From assembly GCF_004006665.1 (NCBI RefSeq), contig NZ_QOCL01000003.1:496001-560000 (forward strand): a DNA stretch of 64,000 nucleotides, written 5' to 3'. The DNA comes from Halobacteriovorax sp. HLS (GTDB lineage: Bacteria > Bdellovibrionota > Bacteriovoracia > Bacteriovoracales > Bacteriovoracaceae). Position 1 is the stretch's first letter, and each line of letters starts with the position of its first letter. The notes below the pieces were generated by a model. The model saw only the letters and a program-made list of their open reading frames with translations, did no database searches and was not told where the DNA came from. A program made the translations under genes and the position numbers. Shown piece after piece: positions 23,642 through 48,184 of the stretch.

Positions 23642-23664
23642 AAAGCGACCATTTTGGTCGCTTT
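23642..23664 (+). terminator. Rho-independent terminator
   Basis: AAAGCGACCA-TTT-TGGTCGCTTT followed by more T, just after the 22770 barrel gene. Confidence 0.93.
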
Positions 23665-23714: not shown

Positions 23715-23754
23715 CTTTTGAAAACTCACCGATAAGCTAGTGAGTTTTTAAAAG
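23715..23754 (+). promoter_or_regulatory. 15-bp hairpin running into the ribosome binding site of the GYF_2 gene
   Basis: CTTTTGAAAACTCAC (23715-23729) pairs along its whole length with GTGAGTTTTTAAAAG (23740-23754), with one G-U pair and a 10-base loop. The right arm includes the first bases of the AAGGA ribosome binding site for the ATG at 23764. No T tract follows. Confidence 0.6.
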
Positions 23755-23763
23755 GAAATCGAC

Positions 23764-24945
23764 ATGTCAAATGCACTATTAAAAGAAGATATCGAATCAG
23801 TTACAGAATTATTCTTAAATCAAGAACAATTAGAGTCTGGACAGTATGCTTTAAGTGAAGTTTTTCATCTATCAATTGATGAAAAAGAATATGGTCCAAT
23901 ATGGCAACAGGACATAAAAGAATTCCTACAAAGAACAAATAATTTAAATGAACAAACAAAACTTAAATCCCTGGACTCACAAGACTGGCAAGGTATTTAC
24001 GATCACCCACTATTTCAAAGAAGAAGACCACAACTTGTATCGACTCACTCACTTGATGAGCAAGAAACAACTTTTCAAGTACTAAAAGACGGTCAAGTAA
24101 GAGGACCCTTTACTTTATTTGAGATATCTTCAATGGTTGAAAAAAATGAAATTCTACTAGTAGATGAAGTCTCAATAGACGAAGGTGCAAGCTGGGGCCA
24201 TCTTTATGAGATAGAAGAATTTGATAGAAGAACTCTTAAATCAAACGAACAACTACCAAACTTACCAAAAGAAGAATTCTTAAACTCTAGACCTTCAAGT
24301 ACCGTTCAAGATGAAAAAACAAACCTCATTGCTGGGCTAGCATATATTGGAAACCTTAAAACAGGTAAGGCCAAGGCAAAAACCAATGAAGCTTCAAACA
24401 TTGGAAGTAATGATGAATACGAATTCAATTCTGACAGCGAAATCGAAGCAAGCTCAAGCTCATCAAAAATTATATGGGCCGTACTATTTGTAACTTCACT
24501 TGCAGGACTTTACTTTGTTCTATCAAGTTGGAATACGCCTACAGATAATTCAGATACGCAAAATGCAATTACAACAAATTCAAGCGATAACACCAACACT
24601 TCTCAAGTGCAAAAAGCAAAGATGCTAAAACCTGTTAAACTAAAACCTACTATTATAAGACCTAGTATAGAGAAATCATCAAAGGTAAATGATAGACCAA
24701 CTTCATTCACAAGAAGTAAGGCCTTTAGACAAGCTGCTCAAAAAAAGAAAATGGCAGATGATGCAAGAATCACGCAAGAAAATGACGACTACTACTATGA
24801 TGACAACACCGATCCAGTTGAACTAGATCCAGTAAGAAGAACACTTAGCAAGGAAACTATTGACCCTGAATTCCAAGATGAATTTATGGACGAAGAGAGA
24901 GCTCCTGCGTCAGACGAAGTGTTTAATGAAGAAGCTGAGTTTTAA
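23764..24945 (+). CDS. GYF_2-domain membrane-anchored protein
   Basis: 393 residues. Residues about 107-160 (LKDGQVRGPFTLFEI ... ASWGHLYEI) match the GYF_2 domain, a peptide-binding module found in bacterial regulatory proteins. The first 90 residues contain a similar pattern (YGPIWQQDIKEFL) and may be a divergent second copy. A membrane span follows near 234-256, then a charged, low-complexity tail of about 135 residues that would be outside the cytoplasm. The target is unknown. It lies directly upstream of tmk, and both starts carry long inverted repeats. Confidence 0.75.
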   Translation: MSNALLKEDIESVTELFLNQEQLESGQYALSEVFHLSIDEKEYGPIWQQDIKEFLQRTNNLNEQTKLKSLDSQDWQGIYDHPLFQRRRPQLVSTHSLDEQETTFQVLKDGQVRGPFTLFEISSMVEKNEILLVDEVSIDEGASWGHLYEIEEFDRRTLKSNEQLPNLPKEEFLNSRPSSTVQDEKTNLIAGLAYIGNLKTGKAKAKTNEASNIGSNDEYEFNSDSEIEASSSSSKIIWAVLFVTSLAGLYFVLSSWNTPTDNSDTQNAITTNSSDNTNTSQVQKAKMLKPVKLKPTIIRPSIEKSSKVNDRPTSFTRSKAFRQAAQKKKMADDARITQENDDYYYDDNTDPVELDPVRRTLSKETIDPEFQDEFMDEERAPASDEVFNEEAEF

Positions 24946-24966
24946 AAAAATCATAAATCTTGTGAC

Positions 24967-25003
24967 TTCATGATCTTATTTATGATAAAAATAAGGTCAT
25001 GAA
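24967..25003 (+). promoter_or_regulatory. 15-bp hairpin enclosing the tmk ribosome binding site and start codon
   Basis: TTCATGATCTTATTT (24967-24981) pairs fully with AAATAAGGTCATGAA (24989-25003), one pair being G-U, around a 7-base loop. The right arm contains both the AAGG site and the ATG at 24999. A TATGAT hexamer at 24981-24986 could instead be a -10 element for a short-leader transcript that lacks the left arm. Confidence 0.65.
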
Positions 25004-25688
25004 AGAAATAAATAGAGAATTAGTACAACAATTTAGACCACCTGCATTTCCAGGCTCATTCTTTTTAAGTTTTGAAGGGATTGAAGGAGCAGGAAAATCC
25101 ACACAAATAATTAGACTAAAAGAATATCTTGAGCAACAAGACTTTCGTGTTTTAATTCTAAGAGAACCTGGCGGTACTCCTTTTGGTGAAAAACTTCGCC
25201 AAGCTATTCTAAGCTCAACAACAGAACTTGAACCAATAGCAGAAGCCTATCTCTTTGCATCATCAAGAGCGCAACTTTTAACAGAAGTAACCCTAAAAGA
25301 ATTAAATACACCTGGCACAGTCGTTATATATGATCGATACATTGACTCTTCAATTGCTTATCAAGGTATGGCAAGAGGCCTAGGAGTTGATACAGTACTT
25401 CAAATTCACAATGTATTCCCGCTAAATCTAATGCCACATAAGACGTTCTATCTACAAATCTCTGCGGACACATCATTAGGTAGACAGACCATGAGAAATG
25501 CCCCTAAAGACTACTTTGAAGTTAGAGGAAAGGCATTCTACGAAAAATTAATTGATGGCTACAATACTTCAATTGATCTCTTTAGCGATAGAATTTCTGT
25601 TATTGATGGCAATAGAAGCTTAGATCAAGTATTCGAGTCTATTAAAGAACAGATCAACGAATTAATTTTCAAAAAAGATGAACAGTAG
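24999..25688 (+). CDS. tmk: Thymidylate kinase
   Basis: Phosphorylates dTMP to dTDP. 229 residues with P-loop GIEGAGKST (27-35), REPGGTP (55-61) and the YDRYIDSSIAYQG motif with D112 and R113, all standard for the family. The first 20 residues are an extension ahead of the core fold. It overlaps holB by 11 bases and begins the run tmk-holB-ricT-sbcD-sbcC; a similar tmk-holB-ricT order is known in Bacillus. Its start codon lies inside a 15-bp inverted repeat, suggesting translational or promoter-level control. Confidence 0.95.
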   Translation: MKEINRELVQQFRPPAFPGSFFLSFEGIEGAGKSTQIIRLKEYLEQQDFRVLILREPGGTPFGEKLRQAILSSTTELEPIAEAYLFASSRAQLLTEVTLKELNTPGTVVIYDRYIDSSIAYQGMARGLGVDTVLQIHNVFPLNLMPHKTFYLQISADTSLGRQTMRNAPKDYFEVRGKAFYEKLIDGYNTSIDLFSDRISVIDGNRSLDQVFESIKEQINELIFKKDEQ

Positions 25689-26505
25689 TCTTATAGAAGA
25701 TAAGCTTCAGCAAAAGCTATTTACCTTGTGGACTCAAGGCAAGCTCGCTCATTTCTATATACTTCAGGCACCCTCAACAGAGATTGAACCAAGAGAGTTT
25801 CTCAAAAGTTGGTGTAATAGTTTTATCGCTAAAACCATTGCGCACCAAAGAGGTACTTCAAAGGAGCTCGCCCTTGAAACAATTGAGGCCGGACATGGGG
25901 ACCTTCTTTATGTCACCAAGGAAAGTGAGACACAGAACTACAGTATAAAAGAAGATACATTTGACGAATTCTTTAGATTTCAGAATTTTAAAAATATGGA
26001 ATTATCTCAAAGGTTTATCGTAATAGATGATGCCCATTCTATTACGAAAGTCTTGAGCAATAAATTATTAAAAACCTTAGAAGAACCAGCTCCTAACACT
26101 ACAATCTTCTTACTTAACCCTAATCGATTTGAAGTCTTACCTACCATCACATCTAGAGCGATAACTCTTAGAATTGTTGGGCAAAACAGAGTCGACACAA
26201 GTACTGAGCTAAATACATTTTCGAAATATCTAGAGCAAATGTCTTTTGAGGATGGGTTTATTACACTAATTGCTCGTTACGAAAGAGATCAACAAGGTCT
26301 GGCAGAAATTATCGAATACTTAAAGAAGAACAAGGAAATTGAGAGAGGGCTCATCGATACTTTGACTCAGTATATTATTTATTCAAAAACAGACTTCCAA
26401 GAAGTTGAAAAATATCTTGATGCTATTAAATGGTATGAACAAGCAACTACCTTTAATAACTACTCAGCAGAGAAAATGACGGGAATACTGCGTCACATCA
26501 GATAA
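25678..26505 (+). CDS. holB: DNA polymerase III delta-prime subunit
   Basis: Clamp-loader subunit of the replicase. 275 residues with the delta-prime-like core: FIVIDDAHSITKVLSNKLLK followed by LEEPAPNT and ITSRA, the standard AAA+ sensor region. The N-terminal P-loop is replaced by LQAPSTEIEP, consistent with a delta-prime subunit that does not hydrolyse ATP; no zinc-binding cysteine cluster is seen. It starts inside tmk (11-base overlap). Confidence 0.87.
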   Translation: MNSSLIEDKLQQKLFTLWTQGKLAHFYILQAPSTEIEPREFLKSWCNSFIAKTIAHQRGTSKELALETIEAGHGDLLYVTKESETQNYSIKEDTFDEFFRFQNFKNMELSQRFIVIDDAHSITKVLSNKLLKTLEEPAPNTTIFLLNPNRFEVLPTITSRAITLRIVGQNRVDTSTELNTFSKYLEQMSFEDGFITLIARYERDQQGLAEIIEYLKKNKEIERGLIDTLTQYIIYSKTDFQEVEKYLDAIKWYEQATTFNNYSAEKMTGILRHIR

Positions 26506-35652: not shown

Positions 35653-35658
35653 TCTATT

Positions 35659-35691
35659 GGCCCAGTCTAGAGATTTAATCTATACTGGGCC
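35659..35691 (+). promoter_or_regulatory. Inverted repeat ending at the YceI start codon
   Basis: GGCCCAGT (35659-35666) pairs with ACTGGGCC (35684-35691); inside, TAGA pairs with TCTA around a 7-base loop. It ends 1 base before the ATG at 35693 and lacks a T tract. Confidence 0.5.
35681..35686 (+). promoter_or_regulatory. -10 element at the YceI start
   Basis: TATACT ends exactly 6 bases before the ATG at 35693; TTGGCC at 35657-35662 could be the -35. This predicts a leaderless transcript and competes with the hairpin reading of the same bases. Confidence 0.45.
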
Positions 35692-35692
35692 T

Positions 35693-36661
35693 ATGAAATC
35701 AATCTACCTAATATCTCTATTTCTCATCTCATTCAATTTACAAGCTTCAGTTTGGCACATTAATTGGCAACACTCTAAGATTGGCTTTTCAATTGGATAT
35801 ATGGGTGTATCAGAGGTTGATGGGAGCTTTCTTAAATATGAAGGAAGTTTTAAGTATGATGAAGCAACTAAGAAATTAAGTGATGTAGATGTTAAAATAG
35901 ATACATCCTCAATTGATACGACCAACAAGAAGCGCGACAACCATCTTGTAAAAAGTGAATTCTTTGATTCTTCTAAATTTCCGTTTATGCTTTTTAGATC
36001 AGACAAGGCCATATATAAAGAGGGACTAAGCACTAAATTAGATGGTTACCTTAAAATTAAAGATATCCAAAAATTAGTGACTCTGAGTATTGACTTAAAA
36101 GGTATCAAAACTGATCCATGGGACAAGAATAAGAAAACCCTTTTTCTCGAAGCGACTACCGAAATTGATAGAACAGATTTCGAGTTATTGTGGAATAAGA
36201 AACTTGATGATGGTTCAACTCTACTATCGAGTAAAGTTAAAATTCTATTAAAGATAGAGGCCTTTGAAGAAGGTGTTAGGCCTGCCTTTTCGAGATTCTA
36301 CCTTCCCACAAAAGATATTAAACAAAACAAAGGTGAATTGCTTGCAGATATCGAAAGTCAGAAAATTGATAAAATAGTCACCCCGATTGATTCTAAAAAA
36401 AGAGTTACTAGCAATATTGTAAAAGAAACTAATTCTGACAAAGGTATGGTCTATACACTGGTATTTGGATTTATCATATTTGTACTTCTAATCATTATTT
36501 CAATTTTTATTCAGCTCTATCTAACAAAACTATTAGAAAAGCTAGGGTTTAGCGAGAATCTCACTTTCATTATTCCAAGTACACTTATTATAATACTCTT
36601 AACTATTACGGCCCATTTCGTAGCACCTTACATGGGATATGGGACCCATCCCTGGCAATAG
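35693..36661 (+). CDS. YceI-domain protein with C-terminal membrane region
   Basis: 323 residues. A signal peptide (MKSIYLISLFLISFNLQA) is followed by a YceI domain (about 20-185; VWHINWQHSKIGFSIGYM, with the alternating strand pattern of this lipocalin-like isoprenoid-binding fold). A linker and two membrane spans (about 255-285 and 295-315) follow, which is unusual because YceI proteins are normally soluble. It may tether lipid binding to the inner membrane. The ATG at 35693 is favoured because it opens the signal peptide; a TTG 36 bases upstream is unlikely. Confidence 0.82.
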   Translation: MKSIYLISLFLISFNLQASVWHINWQHSKIGFSIGYMGVSEVDGSFLKYEGSFKYDEATKKLSDVDVKIDTSSIDTTNKKRDNHLVKSEFFDSSKFPFMLFRSDKAIYKEGLSTKLDGYLKIKDIQKLVTLSIDLKGIKTDPWDKNKKTLFLEATTEIDRTDFELLWNKKLDDGSTLLSSKVKILLKIEAFEEGVRPAFSRFYLPTKDIKQNKGELLADIESQKIDKIVTPIDSKKRVTSNIVKETNSDKGMVYTLVFGFIIFVLLIIISIFIQLYLTKLLEKLGFSENLTFIIPSTLIIILLTITAHFVAPYMGYGTHPWQ

Positions 36662-47584: not shown

Positions 47585-48184
47585 TCAATATGGATTTTTC
47601 TCAGGCGCACACAAGTCTTTAGGTTCAAACATTCCATGAGACATGTAAACTCCAGCGCCAACGACTACATTCTTTTTTAATGTTGGGTCAAAACACCTTT
47701 TAATAAAAGAAACCTTCTCTCCCCTTTCAAAATACCCCTTATGTTCCCAAAGATAAGGAACCCAACACCCCTCAGGTTTAATAGTAGCAGACTTGTTAAA
47801 TTTTTCGAAAATTTTATGTCCACCAAAGCTCTTATGGGCAAGGTCTCTTTGTTTTTGTAGTCGTGGATTATTTGGATGCATAAGCATAACAAAGTGATTC
47901 TTATAATTTGTTCGATTAAGCCCAGGCATATAGTCTTGTACCCAAACATAATTATTTACACAGTGCCTTGATTCATTAATCTTAGAAAAGGCCCCCAAAG
48001 GATCGCTAATACTTCTAGAGCCTAACTTTTCAATCCACTCACAAGATAGCTCTACAGCATGCTTAGCAGCGGCAATTTTCCCATTAGCAGAATTACAATT
48101 TTCAGTATCAGAAAATTTTGAGTACTCTTTAGCACTTAAACTAAACAAACTAACAGAACTAACCAACAAAATTAATTTTAACAT
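47585..48184 (-). CDS. Secreted single Cache-domain protein
   Basis: 199 residues with a signal peptide (MLKLILLVSSVSLFSLSA). The body fits a single Cache (sCache_2-like) fold: NNYVWVQD, then VMLMHPNNPRL, GGHKIFEKF, WVPYLWEHKG and VVVGAGVYMSHG. Cache domains bind small ligands as extracellular parts of chemoreceptors and kinases. Here no membrane span or output domain is attached, so it would act as a free periplasmic sensor or binding protein. Two or more cysteine pairs are present. GGAG lies before the ATG. The gene follows the caspase-like gene on the same strand. Confidence 0.75.
   Translation of the reverse strand: MLKLILLVSSVSLFSLSAKEYSKFSDTENCNSANGKIAAAKHAVELSCEWIEKLGSRSISDPLGAFSKINESRHCVNNYVWVQDYMPGLNRTNYKNHFVMLMHPNNPRLQKQRDLAHKSFGGHKIFEKFNKSATIKPEGCWVPYLWEHKGYFERGEKVSFIKRCFDPTLKKNVVVGAGVYMSHGMFEPKDLCAPEKNPY

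Follow-up and report, generated by a model that had tools for sequence, protein, structure and literature searches.

The tmk locus and its start hairpin

The window, by which we mean the whole 64,000-nucleotide stretch of DNA analyzed here, comes from Halobacteriovorax sp. HLS, a marine predatory bacterium. Its forward strand carries tmk (24999..25688), which encodes a thymidylate kinase of 229 aa (Pfam Thymidylate_kin, 5.8e-44). Among named proteins, its nearest relatives, at 80% identity, belong to Halobacteriovorax marinus and a Bacteriovoracaceae bacterium. A co-directional gene lies upstream (23764..24945, +), encoding 393 aa with a GYF_2 match too weak to reach the Pfam cut-off, and its stop is located 53 nt before tmk; a terminator scan found no intrinsic terminator between the two genes. 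Downstream, a DNA polymerase III delta' type gene (275 aa, 25678..26505, +) overlaps the end of tmk and is presumably co-transcribed with it, and genes of the PSP1 and metallophosphoesterase families also lie on this side. The upstream gene has a hairpin of its own at 23715-23754, where 15 pairs (CTTTTGAAAACTCAC...GTGAGTTTTTAAAAG) form directly 5' of its SD; the co-directional gene before it, at a distance of 145 nt, already has a terminator at 23642-23664.

The start of tmk is covered by an inverted repeat of 15 bp, with arms at 24967-24981 (TTCATGATCTTATTT, +) and 24989-25003 (AAATAAGGTCATGAA, +) and a 7-nt spacer. The arms form 14 Watson-Crick pairs and one T-G pair (G-U in RNA), yielding a stem of 11 A-U, 3 G-C and 1 G-U pairs, and both an AAGG and the ATG at 24999 are contained within the right arm. 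These features had been reported in a preliminary description of the locus, and the sequence and its computed fold confirm them. The 111 nt from 24930 to 25040 fold at -20.7 kcal/mol; dinucleotide shuffles average -12.6 (sd 2.8), which gives z -2.9, and none of 200 shuffles is as good. In a long transcript bearing both arms (L001), the computed pairing probability of the AUG is 1.00.

The palindrome is unique. Searched in degenerate form with up to 3 mismatches, it has a single match in the window, namely itself, with 0 expected, and its 31-base core, at up to 3 mismatches, occurs in the whole genome at the tmk site only (matches on both strands). A shared operator or regulon was therefore rejected, the palindrome being single-copy in its own genome and its arms variable among relatives. 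Nor is the hairpin an intrinsic terminator, which would be a GC-rich stem followed by a T-run, the terminator scan being negative; the tail behind it, AGAAATAAAT, is A-rich and without a T-run.

A predicted promoter within the hairpin

An extended -10 element, TG-A-TAAAAA (24983..24991, +), reaches across the loop into the inner part of the right arm, and the same element is conserved at tmk across the family. Its TG (24983-24984) precedes the hexamer TAAAAA (24986-24991), which is without the final T of TAnnnT but has the TG extension; its end stands 7 nt from the ATG. An alternative -10, TATGAT at 24981-24986, overlaps this element; from it, tmk would be predicted to start some bases earlier, still to the right of the left arm. 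The sequence TGTGACTTC (24961..24969, +) is the same in all five same-genus genomes in the alignment and is probably the upstream (-35 side) element of the tmk promoter. In this alignment of the genus, TGTGACTTC and ATGnTAAAAATA never change, but the stretch separating TAAAAATA from the ATG does. The AAGG is missing from four of the five same-genus genomes, relatives having, for example, AAATACTCTATG.

The region before tmk was compared in 69 loci, and in 45 of these a single start codon is possible. Of the 45, 24 carry an extended -10 (TGnTA) whose hexamer end is 5-7 nt from the ATG, versus a mean of 0.88 in shuffles (max 5, 500 shuffles), and in 19 of the 24 the distance is exactly 6 nt; SD-like motifs precede tmk at 7/45. 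As the main texts of two studies describe, leaderless genes carry an ORF-adjacent -10, TANNNT, at a distance of some 6 nt from the start codon (PMC3160421; PMC12340547). The tmk genes of the family fit this arrangement, with a TAnnnT-like element about 6 nt before the start and no SD in the predicted transcript. Because this -10 is of the leaderless type known from the main text of PMC3160421, transcription is predicted to begin at about the ATG (~24999), within the right arm, and to give a leaderless tmk mRNA. The left arm is therefore not expected in tmk's own message, and would be found only in read-through RNA of the upstream gene. An apparently leaderless tmk would, for the same reason, have no ribosome binding site to hide. 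The 5' end of the predicted leaderless mRNA is without unusual structure (z +0.8).

These predictions bear on the interpretation in the preliminary description, namely an RNA switch or thermometer that hides the ribosome binding site and regulates tmk translation. We now consider this highly improbable. If transcription came from an upstream promoter, the stem would indeed hide the AUG (pairing probability 1.00), and with its 11 A-U, 3 G-C and 1 G-U pairs it could melt with heat, but a leaderless-type promoter lies inside the hairpin and the SD-like AAGG is not conserved. Rfam yields nothing relevant, the best match at E<=1 being snR42, whose 12.5 bits fall short of the cut-off of 61; with no match and no conserved leader sequence, the conserved 5' UTR aptamer of a riboswitch is missing. 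An RNA thermometer, a hairpin in a gene's own 5' UTR, is disfavored as well, the predicted tmk mRNA having almost no 5' UTR. The earlier reading was said to fail if transcription began inside the right arm, so that the left arm was never made, and this is what is predicted for tmk's own mRNA.

Other members of the group differ in their start type. In the genus g14 (e.g. L040, L042, L045, L049, L054; Bacteriovorax-like), tmk has no leaderless -10 and carries an SD-like AGGA instead; the change to the SD type coincides with absence of the hairpin, except in L040 (score 24.5). A Bdellovibrio transcription start site paper maps promoters of the attack phase only, and its main text contains neither "leaderless" nor "tmk" (PMC3627812).

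Conservation of structure across the family

A total of 129 family genomes were searched and a tmk match was found in 121; 109 loci were fetched, and one (L025, without upstream sequence) was dropped. The remaining 108 comprise, by a hand-made genus list, 38 leaderless loci, 17 clade members that are SD-type or untagged, and 53 more distant loci. The tmk start codon was picked by the -10 or the SD, blind to the hairpin. In a swap test, the left part of each region was replaced by that of another genus, with composition and the -10 kept. Over the 38 leaderless loci (19 genera), the own hairpins score 14.38 versus 9.86 for swapped ones (sd 0.46, max 11.17 of 200). The difference is retained without the window's genus (13.32 versus 9.81, sd 0.48, max 11.64) and with one locus per genus (13.61 versus 9.92, sd 0.66, max 11.74). 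Likewise, the ViennaRNA MFE is -9.28 for own and -5.23 (sd 0.43) for swapped sequences, and -9.06 versus -5.39 without the window's genus. Scores of at least 18 are reached by 11/38 leaderless loci, versus 0.34 expected, and scores of at least 14 by only 16/38, with 3.9 expected. No comparable signal was obtained for the 17 SD-type or untagged clade members (own 10.41, swapped 9.68) or the 53 more distant loci (10.20, 9.79).

The signal is confined to the start codon. In a position scan, own arms exceed swapped arms solely for right-arm ends at 0..+7 relative to the ATG (9.51 versus 6.88; 9.11 versus 7.72), with no excess from -36 to -5 of the tmk ATG. For the AUG itself, the pairing probability shows no significant rise (own 0.605, swapped 0.522, max of 100 swaps 0.622), and in several species the stem merely abuts the AUG. 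The same-genus genome G002 has no real stem at tmk.

The arms themselves turn over. They read GAGTATTT/AAATACTC in L003 and L004, GTTCATAGCTATG/CATAGTTATGAAC in L043, ACTGCCAT/ATGGCAGT in L046, GGGAGAT/ATCTCCC in L044, GGGCCA/TGGCCC in L060 and GCCTCA/TGAGGC in L009. Covariation of the stem among relatives had been suggested as a check in the preliminary description; column by column within the genus, 1/11 pairs changed on both sides, which 337/500 shuffles reach. The stem shifts its register when it re-forms, which is why compensatory changes do not rise above shuffles. Judged by the swap comparisons, the tmk hairpin is under selection.

Start-covering hairpins across genomes

Hairpins over gene starts were also counted genome-wide, with gene starts, those of E. 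coli K-12 included, taken from a simple ORF picker and not from annotation. In 464 kb of the own genome (397 gene starts), 8 hairpins whose right arm ends at -8..+6 score at least 25, versus 0.3 in shuffles, and start hairpins therefore occur beyond chance. The first genome-wide test, with all genes mixed, gave a modest holdout excess (scores of at least 21 in 6/358 versus 1.7-2.1). The orientation of the neighboring gene was then considered in four family samples: the 464 kb of the own genome, further stretches of it (G000), G001 of the same genus and G136 of the same family. Scores of at least 21, a right-arm end at -8..+6 and no T-run were required. Behind a co-directional gene at 21-150 nt, start-covering hairpins occur at 22/358 starts, with 1.45 expected. 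They occur at 1/123 with a co-directional gap above 150 nt (0.5 expected), at 0/555 with a gap of 20 nt or less (1.8 expected) and at 1/426 divergent genes (2.25 expected). The co-directional and divergent classes differ at 3e-7 (Fisher). With scores of at least 20 and T-runs not excluded, the counts per sample are 10/84, 5/93, 5/82 and 9/99 for co-directional genes, and 1/144, 0/118, 0/78 and 0/86 for divergent genes; the three samples taken once the pattern was known give 19/274 versus 0/282.

The split by neighbor orientation was chosen post hoc, and only the later test on G013 and G041 was blind to it: 4/85 co-directional (0.4 expected) and 0/134 divergent genes (0.45 expected) in G013, and 3/93 (0.05 expected) and 2/122 (0.6 expected) in G041, which represents another family of the same phylum. 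In 400 kb of E. coli K-12, 0/87 co-directional genes have a start-covering hairpin (0.65 expected), and the contrast between the family and K-12 is modest (p 0.011).

The co-directional link brings forward the main rival to any function at tmk itself, in which the hairpin is the 3' end of the upstream mRNA, either as an exonuclease block or as a U-tract-free terminator, and overlaps tmk through shortness of the intergenic space. Such hairpins go with a co-directional upstream gene also where the right arm ends at -24..-9 (14 versus 1.8), the gap before tmk has no other terminator, and rapid sequence turnover with pairing kept would fit a 3'-end hairpin. We nevertheless find this reading unlikely, given that the swap excess at tmk is limited to right arms ending at the ATG, with none elsewhere in the intergenic space, and that the tail is A-rich with no T-run. 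Hairpins with a T-run, the ordinary terminators, sit further upstream of starts.

An action at the DNA level, in which tmk transcription would be controlled by an operator palindrome across the -10 or by a promoter prone to form a cruciform, is quite unlikely. The center of the palindrome is near the predicted -10, and a few SD genes have palindromes around a TATAAT that end before the SD. However, the arms vary between species and between genes, the palindrome is single-copy at up to 3 mismatches, and only 1/426 divergent genes carry such a hairpin, though operators should be at least as common there. Stem mismatches point the same way: outside SD windows, the sense strand has 17 G-U and 4 A-C (p 0.007 at 1:1, 0.026 at 0.55), a surplus that sense RNA would be expected to show; within the tmk hairpins alone the ratio is 4:2, too few. 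The preliminary description had favored RNA-level over operator selection on account of its single G-U pair. That part of its switch interpretation is now supported, by the better pairing of own over swapped arms, the unique palindrome and the 17:4 ratio.

Template switching copies one palindrome arm into the other. Over a short range, it could perfect palindromes without any function, and the patchy occurrence, the rapid turnover and the stemless G002 would agree with such a by-product or with chance. We regard this as very unlikely, since clustering behind co-directional genes, absence at divergent and tightly coupled ones, and recurrence in independent genera are not expected without selection.

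Arm sequences of start-covering hairpins vary from gene to gene, and the genes are diverse. They include a YceI-domain gene in the window (start at 35693) and others which, from their sequences, we take to be dapF-like (in G136) and cell-wall enzyme-like. The YceI hairpin (35656-35694, ATTGGCCCAGTCTAGA-gatttaa-TCTATACTGGGCCTAT), the second in the window to cover a start, ends in the ATG, 40 nt behind a co-directional gene, and TATACT is found 6 nt before the ATG. At 48184, a minus-strand start, ATTCCGATTA...TAATTGGAGT pairs the SD of a 200-aa gene. In G136, a distant family member, the presumably dapF-like gene at L170:8459-8486 (minus) has CATAGGACTG-tgctaaaa-CAGTCCTATG, whose right arm contains the ATG and whose loop contains an extended -10. 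A G013 stretch (L198-L217), 126 nt downstream of a co-directional gene, has TTCCTCAGTTC-attataatagta-GTGAACTGAGGAG; its loop holds TATAAT and its right arm an SD-like GAGGAG, which is the layout of T4 gene e. A perfect 17-bp inverted repeat, TTTTCGTGATACTAACA/TGTTAGTATCACGAAAA, at G000:C3:145034-145073 (L077) lies shortly before the gene for a 321-aa protein in which a helix-turn-helix-like stretch was recognized by eye from the sequence.

A promoter in the loop was tried as a genome-wide rule and rejected: 10/65 non-terminator hairpins have one versus 9.8 expected, and 9/35 versus 5.6, which is not significant. The arrangement, as a conserved -10 inside the hairpin, is shown for tmk only. Hairpins at strict leaderless genes in general were likewise rejected as a rule: over 151 such genes, own hairpins score 10.89 versus 9.94 (sd 0.21, max 10.55), with no excess in two of the four samples.

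Proposed insulation from read-through transcription

We propose, at a probability of about 0.5, that the tmk hairpin is a read-through insulator, similar to that of T4 gene e but in leaderless form. The mechanism we infer is as follows. The tmk promoter, with its extended -10 inside the hairpin, would start a leaderless mRNA at the AUG, and this message, without the left arm, would be freely translated. Transcripts entering from the gene 53 nt upstream, with no terminator on the way, would carry both arms and fold, leaving the AUG paired or abutted by the stem, and unused. In effect, tmk and the polymerase-subunit gene behind it would be uncoupled from expression of the upstream gene.

Insulation is the best explanation because structure is kept despite sequence change, on the start codon and containing or abutting a leaderless-type promoter, and because such hairpins lie behind co-directional genes and not behind divergent or tightly coupled ones. 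Silencing of stray upstream messages is more likely than an on/off switch, and a start codon covered by a hairpin does not imply a switch in that gene's own mRNA. As a counterpoint, an internal AUG without an SD may need no extra blocking.

The genome-wide counts hint at widespread insulator use in the group. A tentative extension, which we hold to be possible while leaning against it, is that in the predatory Bacteriovoracales and relatives start-covering hairpins replace terminators, throughout the genome, in guarding against read-through translation between co-directional neighbors, the leaderless promoter-in-hairpin combining promoter and insulator in one element evolved at the level of structure. 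Halobacteriovorax is culturable, which makes the insulator idea simple to test.

Comparison with known systems

The literature consulted, mostly outside subscription journals (including PMC9753608 and PMC7566282), yielded no described bacterial counterpart in the texts available. The closest likeness is with phage T4. As described in the main text of PMC3014915, gene e (also soc, 49 and I-TevI) has a translation-inhibiting hairpin over its start; its long transcripts fold and are poorly translated, and transcripts from the late promoter lack the 5' strand. There the promoter lies in the DNA encoding the 5' strand of the hairpin, and the predicted geometry at tmk is the same. A stable hairpin over the start would form in a long transcript of tmk, the conserved extended -10 lies inside it, with the start of transcription predicted, and the context for a long transcript is a co-directional neighbor with no terminator between. 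In contrast to gene e, tmk is a housekeeping gene of a cellular genome with a sigma70-like extended -10, its mRNA is predicted to be leaderless where T4 has an SD leader, its inhibition is a proposed one, and its arm sequence turns over between species.

The transposases of IS10 and IS50 are protected from outside transcription, and lacI-lacZ has a read-through hairpin. In these systems, as proposed for tmk, the read-through RNA folds over the start and the proper mRNA lacks one arm. They differ in belonging to mobile elements or a catabolic operon with an SD, and not to a leaderless gene.

Genes with an ORF-adjacent -10 resemble tmk in having the -10 about 6 nt before the start and a predicted transcription start at the ATG (PMC3160421; PMC12340547). 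They differ in that the main texts describe no hairpin around the -10: "hairpin" occurs 0 times in the first and once, in a reference title, in the second, and "inverted repeat" in neither.

The tmk case is likely a leaderless form of an insulation mechanism already known. Insulation by a promoter within a hairpin has so far been described for a handful of genes in phages and transposons. A recurring version on chromosomal genes, leaderless ones among them, that is selected for its structure would, if true, represent a general, terminator-free means of independence for neighboring genes in compact genomes.
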